From the NCBI RefSeq assembly GCF_011044155.1, contig NZ_CP049056.1:3104001-3168000 (forward strand): DNA of 64,000 bases. The letters are read 5' to 3'. Both the position numbers and the translations under genes were made by a program. The notes beneath the pieces were generated by a model. It saw nothing but the letters and a program-made list of their open reading frames with translations. It did no database searches and was not told where the DNA came from. Each line of letters opens with the position of its first letter. Within the stretch, counting starts at the first letter, position 1. This DNA is from Pikeienuella piscinae (GTDB lineage Bacteria > Pseudomonadota > Alphaproteobacteria > Rhodobacterales > Rhodobacteraceae). This document shows, in pieces, positions 1,432 through 19,922 of this stretch.

Positions 1432-2249
1432 GGCTCTGTCAGACAAAACCGGCTTGAGCACGGGAGGCCCGGCTCGTAGCCTCCTCGGATGAGCGCGCGC
1501 AGCCCCTTCCGATACTTCAAAACCAGCCCGGCCATCATCCGCTTGGCCGTGATGATGTACGTCCGGTTTCCGTTATCGTTGCGGAACGTCGAGGACCTCC
1601 TCCACGAGCGTGGGATCGACGTGAGCCACGAGACGATCCGATTCTGGTGGATCAGGTTCGGCCCGATGTTCGCCGCCGAGATCCGTCGCAAGCGCGCAGA
1701 CCGGATGCGCGCGTTTTCCAACTGGCGGTGGCATCTCGACGAGGTCTTCGTGAAGGTGAACGGTGAGCGCCGCTATCTCTGGCGCGCCGTCGATCACGAA
1801 GGTGAGGTGCTGGAGGCCGTAGTGACCAAGCGCCGAGACAAGCGCGCCGCATTGAAACTGCTCAGAAAACTGATGAAGCGCTACGGACGGCCGGCGGAAA
1901 TTGTCACCGACCGCCTTCCCTCCTATCGGGCCGCGCTCAGGACTCTCGGCGCAGAGGGCATGCAGTTGACGGGCCGCTGGCTGAACAACCGAATCGAGAA
2001 TTCCCACCAGCCCTTCCGACGACGAGAGCGGGCGATGCTCCGCTTCCGGCGAATGCGCACCTTGCAGACCTTCGCCGCCGTCCACTCCTCGATCCACAAT
2101 CATTTCAATCTGGAGCGCCACATCTACCGACGAGACGACTTCAAGGAGAACCGGGCCGTCGCGCTCGCCGAGTGGCGTTGGCTCGGCGCAGCCTGAAGCT
2201 TCGCGAGACCTCGCCAAACGGAGACTTGTGCGTTTTGTCTGACAGGACC
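1432..2249 (+). mobile_element. IS6-family insertion sequence, copy A (818 bp)
   Basis: The element is bounded by inverted repeats GGCTCTGTCAGACAAAAC at 1432-1449 and its near-perfect complement at 2232-2249 (14 inner bases identical). It contains one transposase gene. The 8 bp on either side (1424-1431 and 2250-2257) do not match, so there is no target duplication. This fits IS6-type cointegrate or deletion events rather than a simple insertion. The right end cuts into a LysR gene; the left side is 35 bp of unassigned sequence and then an IS5 fragment. Confidence 0.85.
1489..2196 (+). CDS. IS6-family transposase
   Basis: A 235-residue DDE transposase of typical IS6 length that catalyses replicative transposition of the surrounding element. 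The N-terminus (SPFRYFKTSPAIIRLAVMMY) is the characteristic IS6 opening, followed by an HTH region (LSLRNVEDLLHERGIDVSHETIRFW). The catalytic residues fall in HLDEVFVKVNG (first Asp), VTDRLPSYRAAL (second Asp) and NNRIENSHQPFRRRER (Glu). The ATG at 1489 lies 40 bp inside the left repeat. A second copy at 19158-19865 has the same length and about 90 percent identity by eye. It appears intact and possibly active. Confidence 0.93.
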   Translation: MSARSPFRYFKTSPAIIRLAVMMYVRFPLSLRNVEDLLHERGIDVSHETIRFWWIRFGPMFAAEIRRKRADRMRAFSNWRWHLDEVFVKVNGERRYLWRAVDHEGEVLEAVVTKRRDKRAALKLLRKLMKRYGRPAEIVTDRLPSYRAALRTLGAEGMQLTGRWLNNRIENSHQPFRRRERAMLRFRRMRTLQTFAAVHSSIHNHFNLERHIYRRDDFKENRAVALAEWRWLGAA

Positions 2250-2777
2250 GGGCTGGTCGCGGACCCCCTGTTCGCGTCGGATCTGATCGCCATCTGCCAT
2301 CCCGATCTGGCGACGGGCAGTCGTCCGATCACCTCACCGCAGGATCTGCGGCATCACGTTCTGCTGGAGGACACCCACGGCCACTGGCCGCTGTTCCTGG
2401 AAAAGGCCCTGCCAGACGAGCAAATCCCCGATATCCGAACGATGAATTTCAGCCAGACGTCGCTCGCCATCGACGCCGCGATCGCGCGTCAGGGCGTTGC
2501 ACTGACCAACCGGGAATTCGTTGCCGCGGATCTTGAAGCGAGCCGTCTTTGCCAACCCTTTTCCTTTTCGATCCAGGTCACGGAAGGATATTATGTCGTC
2601 GCCCCCCGCGAACCAAGAAACCCAACCGTCGTCGCGGTCGTGAAAGACTGGCTCATGGGGCAACCCGCGACGATCAAGATCAGTTCAAATCAACCCTTGC
2701 ACAAACGGAGCCGTCCACACATGAGAGCACCCCTAGACATGTCGGACTTTCTAGCCAGGGAGATACAAGATGAATGA
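2250..2777 (+). pseudogene. LysR-family regulator, C-terminal effector domain only
   Basis: After the IS6 right end the frame reads GLVADPLFASDLIAICHPDLA and continues through the second half of a LysR substrate-binding domain of GcvA type (DLRHHVLLEDTHGHWPLFLE; SLAIDAAIARQGVALTN; YYVVAPREPRNPTVVAVVKDWL). The DNA-binding HTH and the first part of the effector domain are missing, replaced by the IS. An open frame enters from inside the IS6 at 2172 but the fusion has no HTH. The stop overlaps the start of the downstream ureidoglycolate lyase by 8 bp (ATGAATGA), so the fragment may still influence translation of that gene. It was probably the lyase's regulator, or a co-transcribed one. Confidence 0.8.
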
Positions 2778-3321
2778 GCGTACGGTGGTGGCGGAACGAA
2801 TCGACGCGGAATCCTTTGCCCCGTTTGGCGAGATCCTGGATCTTCAGGATGCGGAACCGGTCTTCCAGAATCCAGGCCTGCGCTCCTGGCGTACGGGATA
2901 CGAGGCTGAAAGCGCCACGGAACTCATGGTCATCGAGTTCGACGAAATTCCCATGACCTTCGACCGGATCGAGCGCCATCACCAGGTCAGCCAGTGTTTC
3001 CTCCCGCTGAGAGGCCGCCCGATGGTCATGGTTGTCGCGCCCAAGACGGGAGAGGACGCACCCGCAGCCGCGTCCGTCCGAGCCTTCCTGGTGGGGCAGC
3101 ATCAGGGCATCCTCCTGCACCGATCTGTTTGGCACGCACTCAACCGGTTCCCCATCGGTGGCAGCGCCGTGCATGCCTTGGTGACGACAGCCGCCACCCA
3201 GGCCGAGCTGGAAGCTGAACGTCGTGGAGGCCCGAAACCGCGCCTGACTGACGTGCACGACTTCTCAACGGAGAAAACGACGTTTCGCATCGAGATCGGA
3301 CCCGAGTTGGGGGCGGTTTAG
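2770..3321 (+). CDS. allA: Ureidoglycolate lyase (AllA family)
   Basis: A 183-residue member of the ureidoglycolate lyase family, which splits ureidoglycolate into glyoxylate and urea at the end of allantoin breakdown in the cytoplasm. Family features are the opening VVAERIDAESFAPFGEIL, the motif IERHHQVSQCFLPL (cupin-like strand with histidines), VMVVAPKTG, and HRSVWHALNRFPIGG. The start is supported by GGGAG 8 bp upstream and by the 8-bp overlap with the truncated LysR frame. A second, shorter paralogue lies at 41340-41828 beside an allantoinase. This copy has no other purine gene next to it, so its substrate could be a related ureido acid. Confidence 0.82.
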   Translation: MNERTVVAERIDAESFAPFGEILDLQDAEPVFQNPGLRSWRTGYEAESATELMVIEFDEIPMTFDRIERHHQVSQCFLPLRGRPMVMVVAPKTGEDAPAAASVRAFLVGQHQGILLHRSVWHALNRFPIGGSAVHALVTTAATQAELEAERRGGPKPRLTDVHDFSTEKTTFRIEIGPELGAV

Positions 3322-3451: not shown

Positions 3452-3645
3452 TGTGGACGGCTCCTGTTTTGCAAGAGTTTTCTTGAGTGACGTGGATCGA
3501 AGCAGGTTGCGGTCATTTGTCCGACCTGTGCGCGCGGTGCATATGACCGCTGACGAACACGCCGGTGAACGGCCTGCTTGGCCGCCAGGTTCTGGTGACG
3601 CCGACGGCTGGGAGCGATACCTCCGAGCCGCGCCGGACGCTGAAC

Positions 3646-4169
3646 TGTAGAAGTTTAGACTTTATCGGACATTTGGCGTCCGGATGTCGGTCGGGTTCCA
3701 CCTGTCGACCTGTGATCAGGCGGCGATCATTTTCTCCTTCGCTATTGGCGCTGCGTCAAGAAAGGTCTGCATCGGCGTTTTGCCGAAGCACCATCGTCCC
3801 TGATGCTCGCGCTCTTCGTTGTAGGTCCTGATCCAGGCGTCGAGATCGACCTGCAGTTCGTCGACCTCGCGGTAGATCTTTTTTCGGAACGCCACCCGGT
3901 AGAACTCGTCCAGGACTGTCTTGTGGAACCGCTCGACGATGCCGTTGGTTTGCGGGCTCCTGGTTTTCGTCCGCGAGTGGTCGATGTCCTCCACCGCCAG
4001 GTAGAGCTCGTATTCGTGCCGCTCCGGGTTGCCGCAATATTCCGTCCCCCGGTCGGTCAGCATCCGGCAGAGCTTCACCTCCTGGTCGTCGAAGAACGGC
4101 ACGACGCGGTCGTTCAGCAGGTCCGCCGCGGTGATTGGCGTCTTGCGCTCGTAGAGCTTGGCGAAGCCA
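3646..4169 (-). mobile_element. IS481-family element, truncated copy (right half)
   Basis: The right terminal sequence TGTAGAAGTTTAGAC starts at 3646 and the minus strand carries the C-terminal half of the transposase (stop at 3716). Coding similarity to the copy at 38456-39241 is near-identical and ends sharply at about 4169, inside [14 protein letters not shown]. The N-terminal half and left end are gone. This copy retains the 83 residues missing from the other copy, including QTNGIVERFHKTVL with the catalytic Glu. Confidence 0.85.
3716..4169 (-). pseudogene. IS481-type transposase, C-terminal half
   Basis: The frame reads [20 protein letters not shown], then [25 protein letters not shown] with the second catalytic Asp of an integrase-core (rve) domain, then SPQTNGIVERFHKTVLDEFYR with the catalytic Glu, ending [19 protein letters not shown]. 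About half the expected length of the protein is absent because the DNA is broken at 4169. It cannot be functional. Its value is as the reference for the in-frame deletion in the second copy. Confidence 0.85.
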
Positions 4170-4171
4170 TT

Positions 4172-4420
4172 ATGAACAACGACGGATGCTCAAGGCGGCG
4201 GCGCGTCGCCCTCGGTCTCGTGACGATCTGGCTGAGCGGCTGCCCGACGGTATATTCAGACGGCGGTGGGATAGGGGCATGTCCGCCTGTGGTCGAGTAC
4301 AGTAGGGAGTTTCAGGCACGGACGGCCGAGGAAATGGCTCTGCCGCCGGAAGGGTCGGCGATCGCGGAGATGCTCAGAGACTACGCCGTGATACGGGACC
4401 GGGTGCGGCGGTGCTCATGA
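4172..4420 (+). CDS. Small lipoprotein, o-spanin (Rz1)-like
   Basis: An 82-residue protein with a basic N-terminus, a hydrophobic stretch and a lipobox-like LSGC (about residues 21-24), followed by a short soluble tail ending CPPVVEYSREFQARTAEEMA through AIAEMLRDYAVIRDRVRRC. This arrangement resembles the small outer-membrane lipoproteins encoded with phage Rz genes (o-spanins), which disrupt the outer membrane at lysis; in phages of this group the gene usually overlaps an inner-membrane partner, absent here. The ATG lies only 3 bp after the broken end of the IS481 remnant, so the original upstream sequence was lost. Identification is by general resemblance only. It is probably a prophage relic. 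Confidence 0.5.
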   Translation: MNNDGCSRRRRVALGLVTIWLSGCPTVYSDGGGIGACPPVVEYSREFQARTAEEMALPPEGSAIAEMLRDYAVIRDRVRRCS

Positions 4421-4888
4421 GCCGACACTTTCGCAACCCCTGCCGGTTGTCTGTTGCTGCCTAGCAACTTCCTCGTAGCGCCCAGTGTTCAGAGGCAGAG
4501 CCGGACAAGCCCATTGCCCCCGTTCAATCCGCCACGATAACGTGGCAAGAGGCGGCGAGCACTGGCTCAAGCGTCAGGTGGCGCGGAAGCGGTCTCGCCT
4601 CGCCGATATTCCCCGCCTGTCGCCTGCGCCATTTCGGTGCAGAGCCTGGAAATCGTTGATTTAAAGCATTTTTTGGATTCTGTGCTAGAGACTTCGGAGT
4701 CGGTCATTGCCGGCTTCTAACGCGACTGTCATCAAACCGCATCTCTCGGCCTTCGCTTCGATTGGCCCTGCGCTTGTTTGGAGAGAGCCTGCGGCACGCG
4801 GCAGAGCCGCATGGCATAGATTCCACGGTAGCTACACGACCGTCGTGGAGGCGGATTTCCCTTCGCGATTGTCGCGGGATTGGCATGT
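4421..4888. other. Intergenic region without recognised gene
   Basis: This 468-bp stretch separates the phage-type lipoprotein from znuB. The short frames here have no family features. An AT-rich segment lies near 4655-4690. No tRNA, inverted repeat or terminator with a T-run was recognised. Confidence 0.4.
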
Positions 4889-5683
4889 TTAGGCGCCTGA
4901 CCGAAACGCCCGAAGCAGGCTCGTGCAGGCGAAACTCACCGCCGCAACGCAGACGACGGACGGCCCGGCCGGCGTGTCGAACAAATAGGCGGCACACAGG
5001 CCGATCACCGCAGAGGCCGCTCCGATGCCCGCCGCGATAACCGCCATGCTCTCAGGCGTGCGCGACAGTGGGCGCGCGGCGGCCGCGGGGATGATCAGCA
5101 TGGCTGCGATCAGCAGAACACCCACGACCTTGATTGCAACCGCCACCGTGATCGCGAGCGAGAGTGTCAGGACCAGCCGTTCGCGCCTCGGGTCGATACC
5201 GCACGCATACGCCAACTCTTCATTCAGCGTCGCGGTGAGAAGGGCGGACCAGCGCCAGCCGATCAGCGCTATCACTAGCGCCGCGCCGCTCCAGATCACG
5301 GCGAGATCGCCGCGCGACACGGCGAGGATGTCGCCGAAAAGATACGCCATGAGATCGATCCTGACGCCGGACAAGAATGACACCGCGACGAGGCCGAAGG
5401 CCAGCGCCGAATGCGCCAGCACGCCGAGGAGCGTGTCCATCGCATAGCCTCGACCGCTGAGCGCGGAGACGGTGAGCGCCATGGCGAGCGCCATGGCGAC
5501 GGCGCCGGCGAAGACCGACACGTGCAACGCCAGAGCAAGGGCGACGCCCAAGATCGCCGCATGCGCTGTCGCGTCGCCAAAATAGGCCATCCGCCGCCAG
5601 ACGACGAAACTGCCGAGGGGCGCCGCGGCGAAGGCCACGCCGACGCCGGCCAGTGCGGCGCGGGTCATGAAATCATCCAGCAT
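4889..5683 (-). CDS. znuB: Zinc ABC transporter permease ZnuB
   Basis: A 264-residue inner-membrane permease of the ABC-3 metal family, forming the channel for zinc delivered by ZnuA and powered by ZnuC. It has about eight hydrophobic segments and the family signature DATAHAAILGVALA (near residue 38), plus KVVGVLLIAAMLIIPAAAAR, the conserved segment that contacts the ATPase. The start is either the ATG at 5683 (TGATG overlap with znuC's stop) or the GTG one codon earlier at 5686; both give tight coupling. The gene ends the zur-znuC-znuB transcript. Confidence 0.93.
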   Translation of the reverse strand: MLDDFMTRAALAGVGVAFAAAPLGSFVVWRRMAYFGDATAHAAILGVALALALHVSVFAGAVAMALAMALTVSALSGRGYAMDTLLGVLAHSALAFGLVAVSFLSGVRIDLMAYLFGDILAVSRGDLAVIWSGAALVIALIGWRWSALLTATLNEELAYACGIDPRRERLVLTLSLAITVAVAIKVVGVLLIAAMLIIPAAAARPLSRTPESMAVIAAGIGAASAVIGLCAAYLFDTPAGPSVVCVAAVSFACTSLLRAFRSGA

Positions 5684-6417
5684 CACTCTGCCGCCTCCGA
5701 CGCCGTAGTGTTGTGAGAGTGGTCGTGCTCGTGCCGGTAGAGCGCGAGCGCACCCCCGGTGCCGGTGCCGAAGAGCGCGCGATATTCCGGCGCCGAGGAC
5801 ACATGCTCCGGCGTGCCATGGCAGCAGACATGGCGGTTGAGGCAGATCACGCGGTCCGAAGTCGCCATGACGACGTGCAATTCGTGGCTGATCATCAGGA
5901 TCGCGCAGCCTGTCTCGCGGCGAATCTCCTCAGTCAGGGCATAAAACGCGGCGGAGCCGGGCTGGTCGAGACCCGCCGTCGGCTCGTCAAGAAGCAGGAG
6001 GGCCGGCTTCACCACGAGGGCGCGGGCGAGGAGAACCCGCTGCAGTTGTCCGCCGGAGAGTTGCGACATCTGCCGGTTCGCAAGGTCAGGCACGCCTGCG
6101 CGCTCCAGGGCGGCGGCCATGTCGGCCTGCGCGGCGCCGCCCGGCAAACGCAGAAAACGCCCAACGGTGATCGGTAGGGTCGGGTCCACATGAAGCCGTT
6201 GCGGAACATAGCCGATGACGAGGCCCGGCGACGAAACGATCCGGCCCGTCGCCGCCGGGATGGCGCCGACGATCGCACGCAGCAACGTGGTTTTTCCGGA
6301 CCCGTTCGGGCCAACGATTGTGACAATCTCGCCCGGCTCGATGGTCATGCTCACATCGCTTAAAACTTCGGTCGCGCCGTAGCGGACGCTCAGGTGTTTG
6401 ACGTCAACAAGGCTCAT
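5683..6417 (-). CDS. znuC: Zinc ABC transporter ATP-binding protein ZnuC
   Basis: A 244-residue ABC ATPase. Walker A is GPNGSGKT (residues 36-43), the signature LSGGQ is at 120-124 and Walker B LLLLDEP is at about 140-146, followed by the switch His in MISHELH. The C-terminus is histidine-rich (RHEHDHSHNTT), as in other ZnuC proteins, and may sense or bind zinc. The ATG at 6417 overlaps the stop of zur (ATGA), which fixes this start within a longer open frame that runs antisense to zur sequence. It couples ATP hydrolysis to zinc import by ZnuB. Confidence 0.94.
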   Translation of the reverse strand: MSLVDVKHLSVRYGATEVLSDVSMTIEPGEIVTIVGPNGSGKTTLLRAIVGAIPAATGRIVSSPGLVIGYVPQRLHVDPTLPITVGRFLRLPGGAAQADMAAALERAGVPDLANRQMSQLSGGQLQRVLLARALVVKPALLLLDEPTAGLDQPGSAAFYALTEEIRRETGCAILMISHELHVVMATSDRVICLNRHVCCHGTPEHVSSAPEYRALFGTGTGGALALYRHEHDHSHNTTASEAAE

Positions 6418-6944
6418 GCGCCGGCCTTCTTGGCGCAGGAGGGGCAGACGCCGAGCGCCTCGACCACGGTGCGTTCGATCCGGAAGCCTGCGGCTCGGGC
6501 TGCCTCGCCCAAGGCGCCGCGGGCCGGGGCGGAATGCGCCTCGGCGACGGCCTCGCACAGGCGGCATATCATGAAGGCCGGGGAATGGCTCGCGCCGGGA
6601 TGGGCGCAGGCGATGAAGGCGTTGAGCCGTTCGATCTTGTGTACAAAGCCGTTCGACACGAGAAAATCCAGCGCGCGATACGCCACTGGCGGCTGCGCGC
6701 CGAAGCCTGCGTCGCTCAACCTGCCCAGTAGCTCGTAGGCGCCCATGGCGCGGTGCTCTCGCAGCAGGACTTCGAGCGCCGCCCGACGCACCGGAGTGAA
6801 GCGCAAGTCTTCGGTGGCGCAATGCGCCTCTGCCGCAGCGATGGCGGTCGTGACGCAATTGCCATGATCATGCGTGCCGAAACCTACCGGCTCGGACGCC
6901 GCTGGACCTGTCGGCGCCATGTCCGGCGATGCGCGACTTGTCAT
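6414..6944 (-). CDS. zur: Zinc uptake regulator Zur (Fur family)
   Basis: A 176-residue Fur-family repressor. The winged helix is RFTPVRRAALEVLLREHRAMGAYELL with QPPVAYRALDFLVSNGFV; the metal-binding half has HPGASHSPAFMICRLC and a C-terminal CPSC pair for structural zinc. The N-terminus contains a Zur-typical HDHGNC. With zinc bound it would repress itself, znuCB and the divergent znuA. The ATG at 6944 sits inside a possible Zur box (6940-6957), which fits autoregulation. The gene is first in a transcript with znuC and znuB. Its place beside znuABC separates it from other Fur paralogues. Confidence 0.93.
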   Translation of the reverse strand: MTSRASPDMAPTGPAASEPVGFGTHDHGNCVTTAIAAAEAHCATEDLRFTPVRRAALEVLLREHRAMGAYELLGRLSDAGFGAQPPVAYRALDFLVSNGFVHKIERLNAFIACAHPGASHSPAFMICRLCEAVAEAHSAPARGALGEAARAAGFRIERTVVEALGVCPSCAKKAGA

Positions 6945-6988
6945 GTTATCTCATGTCCTGTATCTGACCTGTAATGTTATACAATCAC
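6940..6988. promoter_or_regulatory. Zur-box candidates between zur and znuA
   Basis: Two imperfect palindromes lie in the short divergent promoter. The stronger, GTAATGTTATACAATCAC at 6971-6988, resembles the alphaproteobacterial Zur box (TAATGTTATAACATTA type). The second, GTCATGTTATCTCATGTC at 6940-6957, overlaps the zur start codon. Both share the core ATGTTAT. Their position would allow one repressor to shut off both directions when zinc is plentiful. Confidence 0.7.
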
Positions 6989-7000
6989 GAAGAGGCGCCC

Positions 7001-7993
7001 ATGTCCAGAAATCTCATTCCACTCTCGCTAGCCGCGACGCTTCTCGCGGGGACGGCCATGGCGGAGGTCCCGCGCGCTGCAGTCGATATCGCGCCGTTGC
7101 ATTCGCTGGTGGCTCGCGTCATGGATGGCCTCGGCGCTCCCTCGCTGATTGTCCAGTCCGGCTCTTCGCCCCATGAATACAGCCTGCGTCCTTCTGAGGC
7201 GGAAGCCCTGCAGAGCGCAGACATTGTGTTCTGGCTTGGCGAGGATCTGACGCCGTGGATGGCTGGCGCGGTCGAGACACTGGCGGCCGACGCCGAGGTC
7301 GTGGAGATCCTGGAGTCGGACGGCACGTTCCTGCTCGAGTTCCGCGAGGGCGCCTTGTTCGAGGCGCATGACCACGGCGATACGGATCACGACGAACATG
7401 ACGAAGGCGAGGGCCACGACCACGACCACGAGGAACACGCCGAGGCCGAGGGGGATCACCACGACCATGCTCATGCCCATGGTGCGCACGACCCGCACGC
7501 CTGGCTGTCGCTCCGGAACGCCGCGACCTGGCTCAACTTGATCGCGGCGCGGCTCTCCGCCGCCGATCCCGAGAATGCCGGCGTCTATTTCGCCAACGCC
7601 GCCGCGGCCCGCGACGAACTCACTACAGTAACGGCCGAAGTGAACGCTATCCTCGACCCCGTGCGGGGCGGCAAGTTCATCGTCTTCCATGACGCCTACC
7701 AGTATTTCGAGATGGACTTCGAATTCCCGGCGTCTGGCGCGATTTCGCTTTCCGACGCCAGCGACCCGAGTCCGGCTCGTATCGCCGAGATCCGAGGCCG
7801 CGTCGCTTCGGAAGGTGTGGATTGCGTGTTGGCCGAGCCGCAGTTCAATCCGGGATTGGTGGCGGCTGTCATCGAAGGCACAGAGGCTAAGACCGCCGTG
7901 CTCGACCCGCTGGGTTCGGACCTCGACCCCGGTCCGGAGCTCTACCCGCAGCTTCTGCGCAACCTTGCGACATCGCTCGCGGGGTGCCTCTGA
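7001..7993 (+). CDS. znuA: Periplasmic zinc-binding protein ZnuA
   Basis: A 330-residue cluster A-I solute-binding protein. A Sec signal peptide (residues 1 to about 21, ending AMA) is followed by the two-lobe fold. Probable zinc ligands are His34 (APLHSL), His58 (SPHEYSLRPS), His166 (DPHAWLS) and His230 (FHDAYQYF). Between residues 123 and 163 is a loop very rich in His, Asp and Glu, the usual zinc-capturing loop of ZnuA. The start at 7001 is preferred over the open frame's 6974 because AAGAGG lies just upstream and the signal peptide begins here. It is divergent from zur under the shared Zur boxes. Confidence 0.95.
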   Translation: MSRNLIPLSLAATLLAGTAMAEVPRAAVDIAPLHSLVARVMDGLGAPSLIVQSGSSPHEYSLRPSEAEALQSADIVFWLGEDLTPWMAGAVETLAADAEVVEILESDGTFLLEFREGALFEAHDHGDTDHDEHDEGEGHDHDHEEHAEAEGDHHDHAHAHGAHDPHAWLSLRNAATWLNLIAARLSAADPENAGVYFANAAAARDELTTVTAEVNAILDPVRGGKFIVFHDAYQYFEMDFEFPASGAISLSDASDPSPARIAEIRGRVASEGVDCVLAEPQFNPGLVAAVIEGTEAKTAVLDPLGSDLDPGPELYPQLLRNLATSLAGCL

Positions 7994-8359
7994 TGCCAAA
8001 ATTCTGTGAAGCTTTCGATCGCCATGTCGGACGCCATGCGCGATACGGCGCGGCGCCGGCGCGGCTTTACGATCCCGCTGCTTCCCTCGCCATGAGCGAG
8101 AGCGCCGAGCCATGAACCTTCTCTCCGGTTCCGCCCATGCACGGTATCTGGCGCAGAGCCGAGACCCTTTCCACGGGCCCCACGATCACTTGGCTGTCTT
8201 CGCGCACGGCGCGCAGACGTGTCGTCACGAAGAATGGAACGCACCCGGCGATGCGCCGCCGGCGAACGAGAACGCCCTGTTCGCGCCGGCGAACAAATCG
8301 GGATCGGACCGCTCCGGGGACTTGCTGGGCGAGGTCTCGGCAAATCTTGTGGGGGATGC
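7994..8359 (+). other. Gap between znuA and the CobW genes; possible decayed gene
   Basis: A 40-codon frame starts within the znuA stop (TGATG, 7993-8115; MPKFCEAFDRHVGRHARYG...) and its stop overlaps the ATG of another open frame at 8112-8363. This chain of overlaps looks operon-like, but neither product matches a family I recognise and the composition resembles shifted coding sequence. It may be the remains of a third zinc-regulon gene. No clear hairpin or promoter was seen. Confidence 0.3.
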
Positions 8360-9104
8360 ATGAGTGATTCGCGTCTTCCCATCACGATGGTCACCGGCTT
8401 TCTGGGCGCCGGCAAGACGACATTGCTCAATGCGATCCTTTCGGACGCGTCGTCTGGTCGAATCGTCGTAATCGTCAACGAATTCGGTGACGCGGGATTA
8501 GACCACGACCTGATCGAGGCGATCAGCGAAGAGGTTGTGCTGATGCAGTCGGGCTGTCTGTGCTGCTCGGTGCGCGGGGATATTGCGCGCACCGTGGCCA
8601 GCCTGCTCACGCGGCGGGACGCGGGCGAGCTTTCCTTCGAGCGTGTGGTGATCGAAACCACCGGGCTGGCCGACCCGGGGCCGATCCTTCAGACGCTGGT
8701 GGCGGATCCCTTCCTCGCCCGCGCGACGCGCATGGACGGCGTTGTCACCGTGGCCGACGCCGCGAACGGACCTGCTACGCTCAATGCGCAGCTCGAGGCG
8801 GTGTCGCAGGCGGCGATGGCCGATCTGATCGTGCTGAGCAAGACCGACCTCGTGACGCCCGAGCAAGTGGTGATGTTCGAAGAGCGTCTCAGGGCGATCA
8901 ACCCCGGCGTTCGCATCGTGCACGCCGTTCGGGGACCCGCCGGCGCCGCTCCGCGACTGGCCGGGCGACGAGCGCCGCTCACGCATCGTGGTCATCGCCC
9001 GCGACATCTCCCGTCCCGCGCTTCAGCGCAGCCTCGACATGCTGCGCGGGCGCTTGCCGCGCGAGGCGGCCGACGAGATTCACAATGAGGTATTCGCGCC
9101 ATGA
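8360..9104 (+). pseudogene. CobW/COG0523 GTPase, frameshifted and internally deleted
   Basis: The start ATG at 8360 ([23 protein letters not shown]) gives a P-loop GTPase with Walker [10 protein letters not shown] and the COG0523 metal motif GCLCC, followed by ETTGLADPGP and SKTDL. These proteins act as zinc metallochaperones in low-zinc regulons. The frame fails after VRIVHAVRG near 8935. A different frame then gives DWPGDERRSRIVVIARDISR through EIHNEVFAP, the expected C-terminal tail, ending at 9102-9104 and overlapping the next start (ATGA). The middle of the C-terminal domain is missing, so a deletion and a frame change have both occurred. The GTPase domain alone might still be made. Confidence 0.8.
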
Positions 9105-9820
9105 CCGACACCCGCCTTCCCGTCACTGTCCTGTCCGGCTTCCTGGGCGCAGGCAAGACGACGCTACTCAATCGTGTGCTGAACAACCGCGAAGGGCGGC
9201 GCGTGGCCGTGATTGTCAACGACATGTCCGAGGTGAACATCGACGCGGACCTCGTCCGCGCCGACACCGAGCTTTCCCGGACCGACGAGACGCTGGTGGA
9301 GATGTCGAACGGCTGCATCTGCTGCACCCTGCGCGACGACCTTCCGCAAGAGGTGCGCAAGCTGGCCGAAGACAAGTGCTTCGACTATCTGCTGATCGAG
9401 TCGACCGGCATCTCCGAGCCGCTGCCGGTCGCCGCGACCTTCGATTTCCGCGATGAGGCGGGCGAGAGCCTGTCGGACGTTTCCCGCCTCGATACGATGG
9501 TGACGGTGGTCGACGCGGTGAACCTGCTGAACGATTATTCCAGCCATGATTTCCTGCGGGACCGGGGCGAGACTCTGGGCGAAGAGGACGAGCGCACGCT
9601 CGTGAACCTGCTGGTCGAGCAGATCGAGTTTGCCGACGTGGTGATCCTGAACAAGGTCGCCGATGCAGGCCCCGAGCGCACCGACGCCGCGCGCAAGATC
9701 ATCCGCAGCCTGAACGCCGACGGCCGGATCATCGAGGCCAATCATTCCGATGTCGCGGTCGGCGGGATCCTCGACACCGGCCTTTTCGATTTCGATAAGG
9801 CGCATGAGCATCCGAGATAT
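9101..9820 (+). pseudogene. CobW/COG0523 GTPase (ZigA/YciC type), 3' end lost to IS3
   Basis: This second GTPase begins [23 protein letters not shown] and has Walker [13 protein letters not shown] (typical of the ZigA/YciC branch), the metal motif GCICC, and ESTGISEP. It is cut after [10 protein letters not shown] (about residue 238) where IS3-type transposase sequence begins; full-length members run to about 400 residues, so the C-terminal domain is absent. The open frame continues to 10387, but that part is transposase sequence read in the wrong frame and other unrelated DNA. Its place behind znuA and the first CobW gene indicates a zinc-starvation role before damage. Confidence 0.85.
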
Positions 9821-10190
9821 CCAACCCTGATAAGAGCAGTCAGTTCACGTCCACCGACTTCATCAAGGTACTGGCGGCGCGAGAGATCAAGATCAGCATG
9901 GATGGCAAAGGCGCCTGGCGCGACAAAGTCTTCGTCGAGCGCCTCTGGCGGACCATCAAATACGAGGAGGTCTATTTGCGCACCTACGCCACCGTCTCAG
10001 AAGCTCGCGCCTCCATCGGCCGCTATCTGGGCTTCCACAACAGCCGTCGCCCGCATTCATCGCTTGACGGGAAAACCTCCGATCAGGCTTATTTCAACCT
10101 GCCGAAGCTGGAAGCGGCTGCAGCGTAATCAAGGCGGAAATCCACTTAGAAAACGCCCGGCAACTGTACAGACAAACAGAGCCACCTCTT
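9820..10190 (+). mobile_element. IS3-family fragment, 3' end of OrfB
   Basis: In the frame of 9823-10128 the sequence reads [20 protein letters not shown], then [22 protein letters not shown], then [18 protein letters not shown], the C-terminal third of an IS3 OrfB with the last Asp region and the catalytic Glu. The following bases to about 10190 (TGTACAGACAAACAGAGCCAC) look like the IS right end. The left two thirds are missing. The junction with the CobW gene is near 9820. Between 10191 and 10277 nothing was recognised. Confidence 0.8.
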
Positions 10191-10277
10191 TCGTGGACAG
10201 TACGGTTGGCCTGAGCGATTGTGACGCGACCTACAGGTTGAATTCCCACCTGTTCCGGCAAGCCGCCGAAGCCGGCG

Positions 10278-11555
10278 TCAGCGTCTGGCCGCTTGTCGTT
10301 CAGCATCCTGTGCCGCATCGCGAAAGACGCCTTTCGCCATCTGGCCGCGTTCTTCCTCAACTCGCGCCCGGTAGAGTCGCGCTCTGACCGACTGCACCGC
10401 CCTATCGTCTGGCGCCGCCATGGCCGCAAACTCGGCGAAGTGGCAGGCAAGGCGCATGCGCCCCTCTTTGGCGAGGCTCTCGGCGCGGTCGGCCAGTTTG
10501 GCCGCGCCGCCAGCGGCATGCGCGATTTCTTCAGCGAGTTCGGCATCGGGCGCCGGTTTCAGCCGCGCCGGGTCGCCATCCCACCAACCGCCATAGAGAC
10601 GACAAATAGCGCGCACGACGAATTCCGGATCGTCGTAATTGTTCTGGATCCATGGCAGGTCGGCGAAACGCGCGGGCGGCGCCACGTGGTGTGGGATTTC
10701 GCCAAGCCGCATCCCGCTGTTCATCAACTCAAGCGATTGCGTGTGCAGCGATTCCAGCCATTCGGCGACATCGGTGAGGATTGTCCGGATCGCGTCACGA
10801 CCGAAGATCACCGGGCCATGACCGGGAACGAGGACCTCCGGGCTTCGCTCCACTATGGCGCGGAGCGTTTCCGCCCACTCGATGATGTAGCGCTGGGCCT
10901 TTTGCGGGTTGCCGGCGTTGGGCGCAGCCCAGGTGTAGAAATCGCCCGCGACGACCAGTGAACGGCTCGGCGCCCAGAGCCACATGTGATCGTCCGTTTC
11001 GCCCTTGCCGTGATAGAGTTCGAACGTCTCGGCGACGCCGTCGATCCGGCCCTCCCCGCGCACCAGAACGTCCGGCGCGCGGAATTCGGTCGGCCAGCGA
11101 AAGCCGGGGCGGGAATACTGGCGGATGTTGATCTTCTCGTTGAAGGGGCCGGTTCGCCGATAGCGCTCGAACCGTCGGGGAACGTTCTCATGCGCGATCA
11201 GCACCGGCCGCGGCGCACCCCGCGTCTCCGCATCCCGGTCGTAGAGCGGCATGCCGGCGACATGGTCGAAATGGCCGTGGGTGTAGACGACAGCCTTGAC
11301 CGGCGCATTCGGCTCCCATTCCCGTATCGCGGCGAGCACTTTTCCGCAGGTGTCGATGGCGCCGGTGTCGCAGACCACCAATCCCTCGGCCGTCCTGATC
11401 GCGGTTACGTTGCCGGAAAGTCCGCGGCAGACGATCGTCACGGCGTCCGACGCCACGTCGAGGCGGATGCAGTCCGGAACGCCGCGGAACCAGTCGTTGA
11501 TGCGGATGCGGCCTTCCATCACGTCGCGGGCGCCGTTCAGCACGTCCAGTGTCAT
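10278..11555 (-). CDS. Metallo-beta-lactamase-fold hydrolase, alkylsulfatase-like
   Basis: A 425-residue cytoplasmic-looking protein with the metal motif [10 protein letters not shown] (His93, His95, Asp97, His98) and later [18 protein letters not shown] and VPGHGPVI, which supply the remaining ligands. The C-terminal half ([26 protein letters not shown]) resembles the dimerisation region of SdsA-type alkylsulfatases and related hydrolases, including the YGGWWDG motif. The exact substrate cannot be told. It is the last gene of the minus-strand cassette with the acyl-CoA synthetase 46 bp upstream, so it probably acts on the compound imported by the TRAP system. Confidence 0.8.
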
Positions 11556-16814: not shown

Positions 16815-17484
16815 GGGTGCGGCCGAGCTCTCTGAACGCTTCCGCTGTGTCGGCGGAGCTTGGCGCGGATATCGCCCCGAGGAAAAAATCGACCAGGTTC
16901 GAGACGAAGGCGGCGACTTCATGCTGCGGACGCACGCGCCGCCCGTCGCGCCGCCGCTTGTCGAAATCCGAGAGGATGTGCACCAACGCGCCGGTGACGA
17001 TCAGCAGCCGCTGACGCAAGATGGCCGAGGGAACGTCCTTTCTGAGCGCGATGATGTGGTCGAAACAGCGCTTATAGCCTTCGTCGTATCTGCCGGGGCC
17101 GAGATGGGTCTTGCGGATCACCGGGTCGCTATAGGCCTGCGCGAGAAACTGAATGTAGCGGTTGTCGCCTGTCTCGTCGTCGAGCAGCTCCGCAAGCGGA
17201 AAGACGATGGCGCAAACGATCTTGTGGAGGTCGATCTCTTCGCCAGAGTCCTCGATCCGGCGGAGCATCTCCAGCCTGCGGGTGTTCACGCGGCTCATCC
17301 GGTAGCCGACGATCGCCTCGATAAGCGCTTCCTTCGAGCCGAAATGATAGTGGAGCGCCGACGTGTTCTTCTGCCCCGCATCCTGGTTGATCCGTCGCAT
17401 CGAAACGGTCGCGATCCCTTCGGCGGCGAACAGCCTTTCCGCAGTTTCAACGAGCCGTTTGTAAGTCTCCGAGTTCGCCGCCAT
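16807..17484 (-). CDS. TetR-family transcriptional regulator
   Basis: A 225-residue regulator. The N-terminal HTH (residues 8-55) reads RLVETAERLFAAEGIATVSM and NTSALHYHFGSKEALIEAIV, the standard TetR helix-turn-helix with the YHFGSKE signature. The C-terminal ligand domain is typical in length but not informative. It is the first gene of the cassette and overlaps the TRAP permease start, so it is autoregulated if it represses the operon. The likely inducer is the imported acid or its CoA ester. Confidence 0.92.
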   Translation of the reverse strand: MAANSETYKRLVETAERLFAAEGIATVSMRRINQDAGQKNTSALHYHFGSKEALIEAIVGYRMSRVNTRRLEMLRRIEDSGEEIDLHKIVCAIVFPLAELLDDETGDNRYIQFLAQAYSDPVIRKTHLGPGRYDEGYKRCFDHIIALRKDVPSAILRQRLLIVTGALVHILSDFDKRRRDGRRVRPQHEVAAFVSNLVDFFLGAISAPSSADTAEAFRELGRTHA

Positions 17485-18225
17485 GCGTTGTAGATTCCTG
17501 CGCTGCGCCGCATATAAAGCACATGATTTATTAAAGCATACTCTTTATCACTTTCGATTCGTCAAGCCTTACTTCCGGAACTGCGAATCCTCAGACTCTT
17601 TCGGCGTCGCAATGTCGTGCCCGATTCGATCGCGGCGGCGGCGACGGCGCGCCGGCGGCGTCAACATCGACACCGTCGCCGCTCGTCGTTCAGTTGCTCA
17701 AGATATGACGCCTGCATGCGCCTCCCCGATCCGCCATTGAAACCGCCCCGCCATGAGGTAACGGCGAATGAACGAAAAGGAACATGCAGCATAACTTGAA
17801 GAGGGTTGCGGCGGCTCATTTGGTCGGCGGAACGGCTGTCGCTCGACCTGACCACCATCGCTTCGCGTTGGCAGAAGACGGCGCATCTCCGCCTGTCCGC
17901 GATCCAACGCTGTGGAACGATCAGGTTATCGATCAGCCAGCCTACCTCCGTCCCGCAGCTTCGTGTTGCACCCGTGCGGCGGCCGGACCGAGCTCCAATT
18001 CGCATGGTCGCCACACACCGCGTCTCCGAGTCAGCGCCCGTCGCGACGTCCGAATCGATGCTGCGTGGCGGTGATCAAGACAATCACTCTTGCCCAATTT
18101 ATGCTCATATCGAACTTTTTTCGTCTACAATTTAAGCGAAAAGTCTCATTGTCGCTCAGTATTTATGCATTTTCGGCTTTTCTGACGGCGAAACCGGGCT
18201 AAATTGCAGACGTTCCCGCCTGCCT
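17485..18225. other. Intergenic region; AT-rich promoter zone and no recognised gene
   Basis: 741 bp between tetR and the UreD-UreG chimera. Bases 17500-17575 are AT-rich and probably hold the tetR-TRAP promoter and operator. Bases 18085-18200 are also AT-rich and may contain the old urease promoter (for example a TACAATTTAA stretch near 18127). The open frames between (such as 17806-18135) have no family features and atypical composition. No IS end was recognised. Confidence 0.4.
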
Positions 18226-18987
18226 GTGGTGAAACTGCCCGCGAAGAGCCCATCGCACGGAGCGGACGCGATTACTCACCTGGCCAATATTTCGACGATG
18301 CGGGCGGCCCCGATGCAGCACAGGGCGCACGGGTCCGCTCGCCTGTCGGTCATCGGCACGGAGCGCGGATCGGTCCTCGACGGTCTCCGCCAGGCGGGCG
18401 CGCTGAAGGTGCTGTTCCCGCGCGTTTCGGAAGCCCAGTGCCAGGCGGTGCTGATCAACACGGCAGGCGGCGTCACCGGCGGCGAGGCGCTCATGCGGCT
18501 CCAAGCCCTGCCGGGCGACAGGATCATCGGCGCCGAGACCGGCGGCTGTCCGCACACGGCGATCCGTCAGGACGCGTCGATCAACCTGGCCGCCGTCGCG
18601 GAAATGGTCCGCCGCCACCCTGACATCGAACTCGTTCTGATCGAGAGCGGCGGCGACAACCTCTCCGCGACCTTCAGCCCCGAACTCGCCGACATCACCC
18701 TCTACGTGATCGACGTGGCCGCAGGCGAGGAGATCCCGCGCAAGGGCGGCCCGGCTATCACGCGGTCGGATCTGCTAATCATCAACAAGACCGACCTCGC
18801 CCCGCATGTGGGCGCCGATCTCTCGGTCATGGACCGCGACGCCCGCCGGATGCGCGGCGAGCGACCTTTCGTCTTCAGCGAACTGCGCTCCCAGCGCGGT
18901 GCTGAGAACATCGTCCGGGTGATTGCCGATCTGGGCGGGTTGAGCCTCGCGATGCCTGACAGCGCGGAACGCGTTCTGGCGACCTGA
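18226..18987 (+). pseudogene. UreD-UreG in-frame chimera, scar of a deleted urease operon
   Basis: One 253-residue frame joins two urease accessory proteins. Residues about 34-86 ([40 protein letters not shown]) are the N-terminal part of UreD. From about residue 88 the sequence is the C-terminal two thirds of Ure[64 protein letters not shown] and [13 protein letters not shown], ending at the usual UreG C-terminus. The UreG P-loop is missing, so GTP binding should fail even though the NKTD guanine motif is kept. The junction is near base 18484. Normally ureD, ureABC, ureE, ureF and ureG lie in that order, so a deletion of the whole operon core would yield this fusion. The start used is uncertain; residues before 30 are not UreD-like. 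Confidence 0.85.
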
Positions 18988-19104
18988 CGCGCGTTCCCCT
19001 CAGCCTACCGTCTTGAGGATTTCGCGGCGACCGCGCGGCGGGTTCAAGCTTGAGTTGCACGATCGCGGAAACCAGACGCACATCACCGTGGCCAGACGGA
19101 TGAT

Positions 19105-19922
19105 GGTGCTGTCAAACAAAACGCACATGTCTCCGTTTGGCTAGGGAAAGCTCGGCCTCAGGCCGCGCCGAGGCGCCGCCGCTCGTCGAGCGCGGCGGTG
19201 CGGTTCAGTTTGAAGTCGTCTCGTCGGTAGAGGCGGCGCTCCAGGTTGAAATGATTGTGAACCGAGGAGTGAACGGCGGCGAATAGCTGCAAGCTTCGCA
19301 TTCGCCGGAAGCGCAGCATGGCCCGCTCTCGTCGTCGAAACGGCTGGTGGGAGTTCTCGATCCGGTTGTTCAGCCAGCGGCCAGTCAACTGCTTGTCTTT
19401 TGCGCCAAGAGCCCTGAGCGCGGCACGATACGAAGGTAGTCGATCGGTCACGATTTCCGCCGGCCGTCCGTAGCGCTTCATGAGTTTCTTGAACAGTTTC
19501 GATGCGGCGCGCTTGTTCCGTCGCTTGGTGACGACGGCCTCCAGCACCTCGCCCTCGTGATCGACGGCGCGCCAGCGATAGCGGCGCTCGCCGTTCACCC
19601 TCACGAAGACCTCATCGAGATGCCAGCGCCAGTTGGAAACCGCCCGCATCCGGTCGACGCGCTTGCGCCTGATCTTGGCGGCGAACATCGGGCCGAAGCG
19701 GATCCACCAGAAGCGGACGGTCTCGTGGCTCACGTCGATCCCACGCTCGTGGAGGAGATCTTCCACGTTCCGCAACGAAAGCGAGAACTGGACGTACATC
19801 ATAACCGCCAGGCGGATAACCGCGTGGCTCGTCTTGAAGTAGCGGAAGGGGCTGCGTTTGGTCATCCGTGGAGGCCAACTGCGCGCAGGTCGCCCCTCAA
19901 GTCTCGTTCCTCTGACAAAGCC
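19105..19922 (-). mobile_element. IS6-family insertion sequence, copy B (818 bp)
   Basis: The tnp-distal end begins GGTGCTGTCAAACAAAAC at 19105 and the opposite end, read inward, is GGCTTTGTCAGAGGAAC at 19906-19922. The total of 818 bp is exactly that of copy A at 1432-2249. The transposase-distal 40 bp are closely similar between copies, while the promoter-side ends have diverged. The 8-bp flanks (19097-19104 and 19923-19930) do not match. It sits between the urease scar and the amidase cassette. Confidence 0.8.
19158..19865 (-). CDS. IS6-family transposase
   Basis: A 235-residue IS6 transposase, the same length as copy A, with all three catalytic regions: HLDEVFVRVNG, VTDRLPSYRAAL and NNRIENSHQPFRRRER. 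The start is set at the ATG giving MTKRSPFRYFKTS; the open frame extends upstream to 20201, but those residues come from outside the element. It differs from copy A at scattered positions (for example LFKKLMKRY for LLRKLMKRY), so the two are related lineages rather than a recent duplicate. It appears intact. Confidence 0.93.
   Translation of the reverse strand: MTKRSPFRYFKTSHAVIRLAVMMYVQFSLSLRNVEDLLHERGIDVSHETVRFWWIRFGPMFAAKIRRKRVDRMRAVSNWRWHLDEVFVRVNGERRYRWRAVDHEGEVLEAVVTKRRNKRAASKLFKKLMKRYGRPAEIVTDRLPSYRAALRALGAKDKQLTGRWLNNRIENSHQPFRRRERAMLRFRRMRSLQLFAAVHSSVHNHFNLERRLYRRDDFKLNRTAALDERRRLGAA

Follow-up and report, generated by a model that had tools for sequence, protein, structure and literature searches.

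A single open frame of 253 aa (18226-18987, +) begins with sequence of the urease accessory protein UreD and continues as UreG, and we asked how such a hybrid came about and whether it is a neutral scar or a protein that has kept a role. All positions refer to the window, that is, the whole stretch of 64,000 nucleotides that was analysed.

Composition of the chimera and position of the junction

The UreG identity of residues 66-233 is given by TIGR00101 (248.1 bits; cut-off 204.2), and the protein also matches UreG of H. pylori and K. pneumoniae. Compared with UreG of the same genus, the UreG-derived part is 76% identical over 153 aa. A tblastn search of the window with same-genus UreD matched 18316-18492 (42% over 59 aa, E 4e-10), while the N-terminal part of the chimera had no match to PF01774 (UreD). 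The original prediction of an in-frame UreD-UreG chimera thus holds.

Alignment with UreD and UreG of relatives places the junction between G86 and E87 (18483/18484), reading UreD ...NTAGGVTGG / [11 protein letters not shown]... UreG. The joining of UreD to UreG is as had been proposed, but its exact place is five codons earlier; likewise, the UreD origin of the N-terminal part stands, and its length is corrected from fifty to about 57 residues. The fusion joins about ureD codon 59 to UreG, which is present from residue 51 onward. When the ureD and ureG codons of relatives are compared by eye, the two places have at most a few bases in common, and homologous recombination at the junction therefore appears unlikely.

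Relative to UreG (TIGR00101; PDB 4hi0, 5xkt), the chimera has residues 51 to the end in common, with CPH, ESGGDNL and NKTD, whereas the first 50 residues of UreG are exchanged for UreD sequence. The P-loop GGPVGxGKT is absent, and so, by alignment, is the region NDIYTxED, which we take to be switch I. The translation accordingly bears out the earlier reading that the P-loop is gone and that NKTD and CPH remain. Relative to UreD/UreH (PF01774), the first ~57 residues are kept through NTAGGVTGG, but the greater part of the protein is lacking. The coordinates are collected in Table 1.

Table 1. Features of the chimera and of its flanks in the window
Feature	Position	Strand	Basis
Two-hairpin structured RNA element, divergent upstream of urtA in relatives	17948-18034	+	84.5 bits with model R1; covariation
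Candidate ancestral ureD starts, ATG 18298 and ATG 18313	18298-18315	+	Alignment with UreD N-termini; spacing from RNA element
UreD-derived part, ending NTAGGVTGG	18298-18483	+	tblastn and alignment with UreD
Deletion junction	18481-18486	+	ureD/ureG codons of relatives compared by eye
UreG-derived part, UreG residue 51 (EALMR) to stop	18484-18987	+	TIGR00101; same-genus UreG match
CPH metal-binding codons (C108-P109-H110), kept	18547-18555	+	Translation; motif role from PMC3792862
Switch II ESGGDNL (from E140), kept	18643-18663	+	Translation
NKTD (G4, from N187), kept	18784-18795	+	Translation
IS6-family element just behind the chimera	19105-19875	-	Transposase NF033587, 182.2 bits

The upstream start had been described as not UreD-like, which reflects the choice of start codon: GTG 18226 is simply where the frame has its earliest start codon, and alignment with UreD N-termini puts the onset of UreD homology near the two ATG codons of Table 1. 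These lie 264 and 279 nt behind the structured RNA element. The distance from that element to the start of ureD is estimated at 253-373 nt (median 273) in the 39 relatives' loci where a ureD could be located, so the ureD leader has kept its native spacing. Scans for promoters and terminators in 17500-19200 found none.

Probable collapse of a urease operon

Within the same genus, locus L007 of genome G003 carries an intact ureD-A-B-C-E-F-G operon at 3626-8504, its middle genes named by order and size. By this layout, about 4.2 kb is missing from the window. The genome under study is a single contig of 4,373,045 bases, 100% complete, and was searched for UreD, urease alpha, UreG, UrtA and urea carboxylase. 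Neither PF01774 (UreD) nor PF00449 (urease alpha) gave a match anywhere in it; as controls, the same searches matched 2 and 4 of 14 genomes, respectively. Used as a query against the complete genome, the chimera matches only itself, leaving no second UreG. An intact ure operon elsewhere in the genome, which the original prediction had advised looking for, is thus not supported by any UreD, urease-alpha or second UreG match. Within the window, the frames of at least 100 codons from the intact relative match only the chimera.

No UrtA above the cut-off is encoded in the genome (best 80.7 bits against 492.75), and a second urea transporter was rejected for this reason. Urea carboxylase was considered as a replacement and set aside, with only partial matches below the cut-off; these cover mostly biotin-carboxylase and biotinyl stretches, apart from one at 3315662 that falls on the central part of the model. 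No significant match to urtA coding sequence is present in the window (best E 0.34). The block 17952-18019 nevertheless matches the divergent urtA-ureD intergenic region of four relatives at 77-84%. As this intergenic block is present and a match to urtA is missing, the urtA side of the locus was lost too; its breakpoint would lie within ~70 nt of the conserved block.

The same fusion was looked for among relatives and plasmids. The chimera has matches in 244 of 295 family genomes, the window's own included. Of 118 loci, 5 were own slices or duplicates, 1 lacked ureG and 3 had only a partial frame; the P-loop is present in all 109 UreG frames extracted from the rest, a few of which may represent one species twice. 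It is also present in all 16 of the family matches listed that extend into the N-terminal region; 4 of these 16 belong to the 109 as well. Among plasmids, 158 records match the chimera, in 6 of them over 80% or more of its length. Of the 5 listed among these 6, the 2 inspected both have the P-loop in frame before CPH, and the other 3 are annotated ureG. A conserved copy of the fusion, the finding that would have spoken against a scar, was seen in none of these 109 frames, 16 matches and 2 plasmid records, a comparison in which the genus is sampled by 4 genomes. The closest named loci are those of Silicimonas, Yoonia and Rhodobacteraceae MAGs, and we use the label Rhodobacteraceae-like. Placement of the UreG remnant in the family tree was abandoned, its support being weak and its sisters differing between the amino-acid and nucleotide trees.

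Given the intact operon in the same genus, the genome without partners and the relatives without the fusion, the chimera was very probably left by the collapse of a urease operon through an internal deletion that happened to keep the frame, as the original prediction had it. The ancestral locus would have comprised urtA, for a urea transporter, divergent from ureDABCEFG. Urea use may then have been lost, with urtA and its neighbours deleted on the left side and a single internal deletion, of ~4.2 kb if the same-genus operon is a guide, joining ureD codon ~59 to ureG codon 51. Such a deletion could have arisen by illegitimate recombination at the few shared bases, and the frame would have been kept by a one-in-three chance. 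Pseudogene fusions in general include operon remnants left by internal deletion. The chimera resembles these in that two outer genes of one operon are fused with little homology, but differs in that its frame is kept and the remnant is without visible decay. As a genuine deletion scar, probably a recent one, it is ordinary; its value is that of a clean snapshot of a nitrogen-acquisition locus being lost.

Constraint and function of the hybrid

The suggested dN/dS comparison was made with a codon model on 14 of 40 sequences. It gave an omega of 0.059 for the chimera branch against 0.073 elsewhere, values that fit a young relic and a constrained protein alike. On the chimera branch, an omega of 0.12 is allowed and 0.15 is rejected at 95%. 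When each of the other 13 sequences was taken as foreground, 3 departed significantly, 2 downwards and 1 upwards. Seventy-seven of 153 core columns are invariant in 39 family UreGs, and the chimera alters two of them (V103A, E115Q); the same count for the 39 family UreGs taken in turn is none in 30, one in 7, two in 1 and seven in 1. The chimera has a mean identity of 0.787 to the family, against 0.801 for the others, with 5 of the 39 below the chimera; among 40 terminal branches, its own ranks 5th in length in the amino-acid tree and 12th in the nucleotide tree. Tree, identity and invariant columns thus show slight signs of relaxation, and no clear relaxation of constraint on the UreG remnant is visible.

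For this reason, a neutral relic would have to be young. If the chimera has been neutral since the deletion, an estimated ~6% of the branch at most, or ~0.07 synonymous changes per site, postdates that event. With only substitutions counted, 37% of neutral copies of this estimated age would have no stop yet, and the open frame is therefore no evidence of function. Either the collapse is recent or the remnant is still constrained, and the data fit both alike.

The motifs bear more directly on function. According to PMC3792862, the stable nickel dimer of H. pylori UreG needs GTP, nickel and CPH, and a P-loop substitution in that protein renders urease inactive. As the P-loop and switch I are gone and the partners were not found, the chimera is probably functionless, and its product is most likely a recent neutral relic. 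A TIGR00101 score above the cut-off, taken alone, is no proof of a working UreG: an in-frame relic can pass as UreG by database score (248 against 204 bits) in a genome without a urease-alpha match.

The main alternative is that the hybrid is a retained protein, its UreG half binding Ni or Zn through CPH or its UreD half docking a partner, for instance as a small metal buffer. The retention of CPH, ESGGDNL and NKTD, an omega that is not relaxed, and the intact ureD start region with its upstream spacing would all suit such a protein, as would a predicted structure that best matches UreG structures. The loss of P-loop and switch I speaks against it, since the nickel dimer described for H. pylori requires GTP as well as CPH, and so does a genome in which neither UreD nor urease alpha has a match. 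The predicted model has a mean pLDDT of 67.5, with residues 1-35 and 56-67 mostly below 50; confidence is low in the UreD-derived part, where the fit to UreG may follow from the alignment given, and the model was kept out of the evidence for the deletion scar. A retained protein is, on balance, improbable. Between the neutral scar and the retained role that the original prediction left side by side, the scar is favoured; we found no direct support for binding or interaction, and constraint is not clearly relaxed.

Mobile elements and damaged genes around the chimera

The IS6-family element behind the chimera has two repeats in its own genome, one of them inverted (1479-2249) and the other lying beyond the window, with identities of 86% and 81%. 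Neighbouring decay takes the form of a LysR gene without its front, an interrupted COG0523 gene and the IS6 copies. The LysR gene is abutted by the IS6 copy, and a ureidoglycolate lyase-like gene comes next; this region (1479-2249 and 2172-3321, +) may be a further damaged part of purine/urea nitrogen metabolism. At 9101-10387 (+), near znuABC-like genes, the C-terminal part of a COG0523/CobW GTPase is replaced by a transposase remnant in another frame, presumably IS3-like. A second COG0523/CobW GTPase at 8219-9088 (+) has a plausible C-terminal continuation near 8930 in another frame, seen by eye, which suggests a frameshift. Of 11 window genes, a peptide-binding SBP5 alone has matches in relatives' loci at a threshold of E 1e-10 (23-26% identity), many of the loci being short.

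Two further origins of the junction can be weighed against these surroundings. A misassembly could have joined two pieces of a genome that really carries the whole operon, and both the little homology at the junction, as in a misjoin, and the broken look of the two neighbouring COG0523 genes might be read in this way; the single complete contig holds no further piece of UreD, UreG or urease alpha, however, and the urtA side is missing as well, which makes a misjoin very improbable. A deletion made directly by the neighbouring IS6 element is hardly credible either: IS6 elements make adjacent deletions, and this copy starts ~120 bp behind the chimera stop with its inverted counterpart 17 kb away, but the junction lies ~620 bp from the element and not at an IS end. 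An effect of the IS on the loss of other neighbours is possible.

A structured RNA next to urtA

The element upstream of the ureD remnant adopts a two-hairpin fold in which variants appear as G-U pairs on the strand leading away from urtA and as A-C mismatches on the other. An RNA on the urtA-sense strand was rejected, its A-C mismatches being G-U pairs on the opposite strand. This polarity amounts to 203 G-U against 48 A-C cells, 34 of the latter in one doubtful outer pair. Model R1, built from 5 sequences with the window copy among them, has matches with an E of 0.1 or lower in 90 of the 295 family genomes. The alignment of 74 sequences (73 distinct) comprises 30 loci (one the window's own), 40 of 65 further rows, the window copy and 4 loci that are named or from the same genus; G028, G124, G148, G218 and the 21 weakest rows were left out. 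L016, picked by eye as a member, was rejected, as the model did not recover it.

Across these 74 sequences, 93.6% of cells are paired and 14 of 22 pairs are changed on both sides, in 127 such cells, counts that lean to structure because the alignment was fitted to it. Among the controls, 0 of 500 shuffles, which ignore relatedness, scored as high, and slid controls reached at most 51.7% paired. By this covariation, the urtA-linked structured RNA is real. Single-sequence folding on the + strand is uneven (z -5.0 for L040 and -1.75 for the window copy), and a U-run behind the second and last stem occurs in 22 of 74 rows and is absent from the window copy.

In 72 of the 73 loci besides the window, urtA is divergent from the RNA at an estimated 53-117 nt (median 62.5), the one exception being a locus that ends at a contig edge; ureD, where found (39 of 73), is always on the strand of the RNA. 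Although urtA is gone, the window copy is intact and keeps each of the 25 columns that reach at least 90% conservation among the other 73 sequences. A class-level search with a model of all 74, under strict filters, matched 3 of 385 genomes, all of the same family.

Rfam 15 (4227 models) gave no match up to E=1 in 17400-18500 of the window, nor any to the urtA-linked RNA in the loci of four relatives, and the RNA is apparently uncatalogued. Titles and abstracts on urea or urtA riboswitches and on small RNAs in Rhodobacteraceae contained no urtA-linked RNA, nor did the accessible part of PMC4809877. We tentatively propose, somewhat short of an even bet, an uncatalogued structured RNA family, transcribed away from urtA in Rhodobacteraceae-like bacteria, that has outlived urtA and urease here; if persistence means function, it would be a trans-acting small RNA and not merely a local urtA/ureD switch. 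A GGA ribosome-binding site is a possible pairing target of its conserved UCCA loop. The urtA-linked RNA would be a new component of urea regulation in this Rhodobacteraceae-like family, and one open to testing.

The only Rfam match in the four relatives' loci was RF02514, the 5' ureB sRNA, at another place. Both are RNAs of the relatives' ure locus, but RF02514 sits within the urease genes, on their opposite strand; the part of the window that was searched contains no match to it. RF02514 was found in the ure operon of all four relatives searched (L039 3749-4038, L040 4276-4561, L043 3881-4168 and L007 5203-5492, all on the - strand), and the L007 copy falls within the ureC frame.
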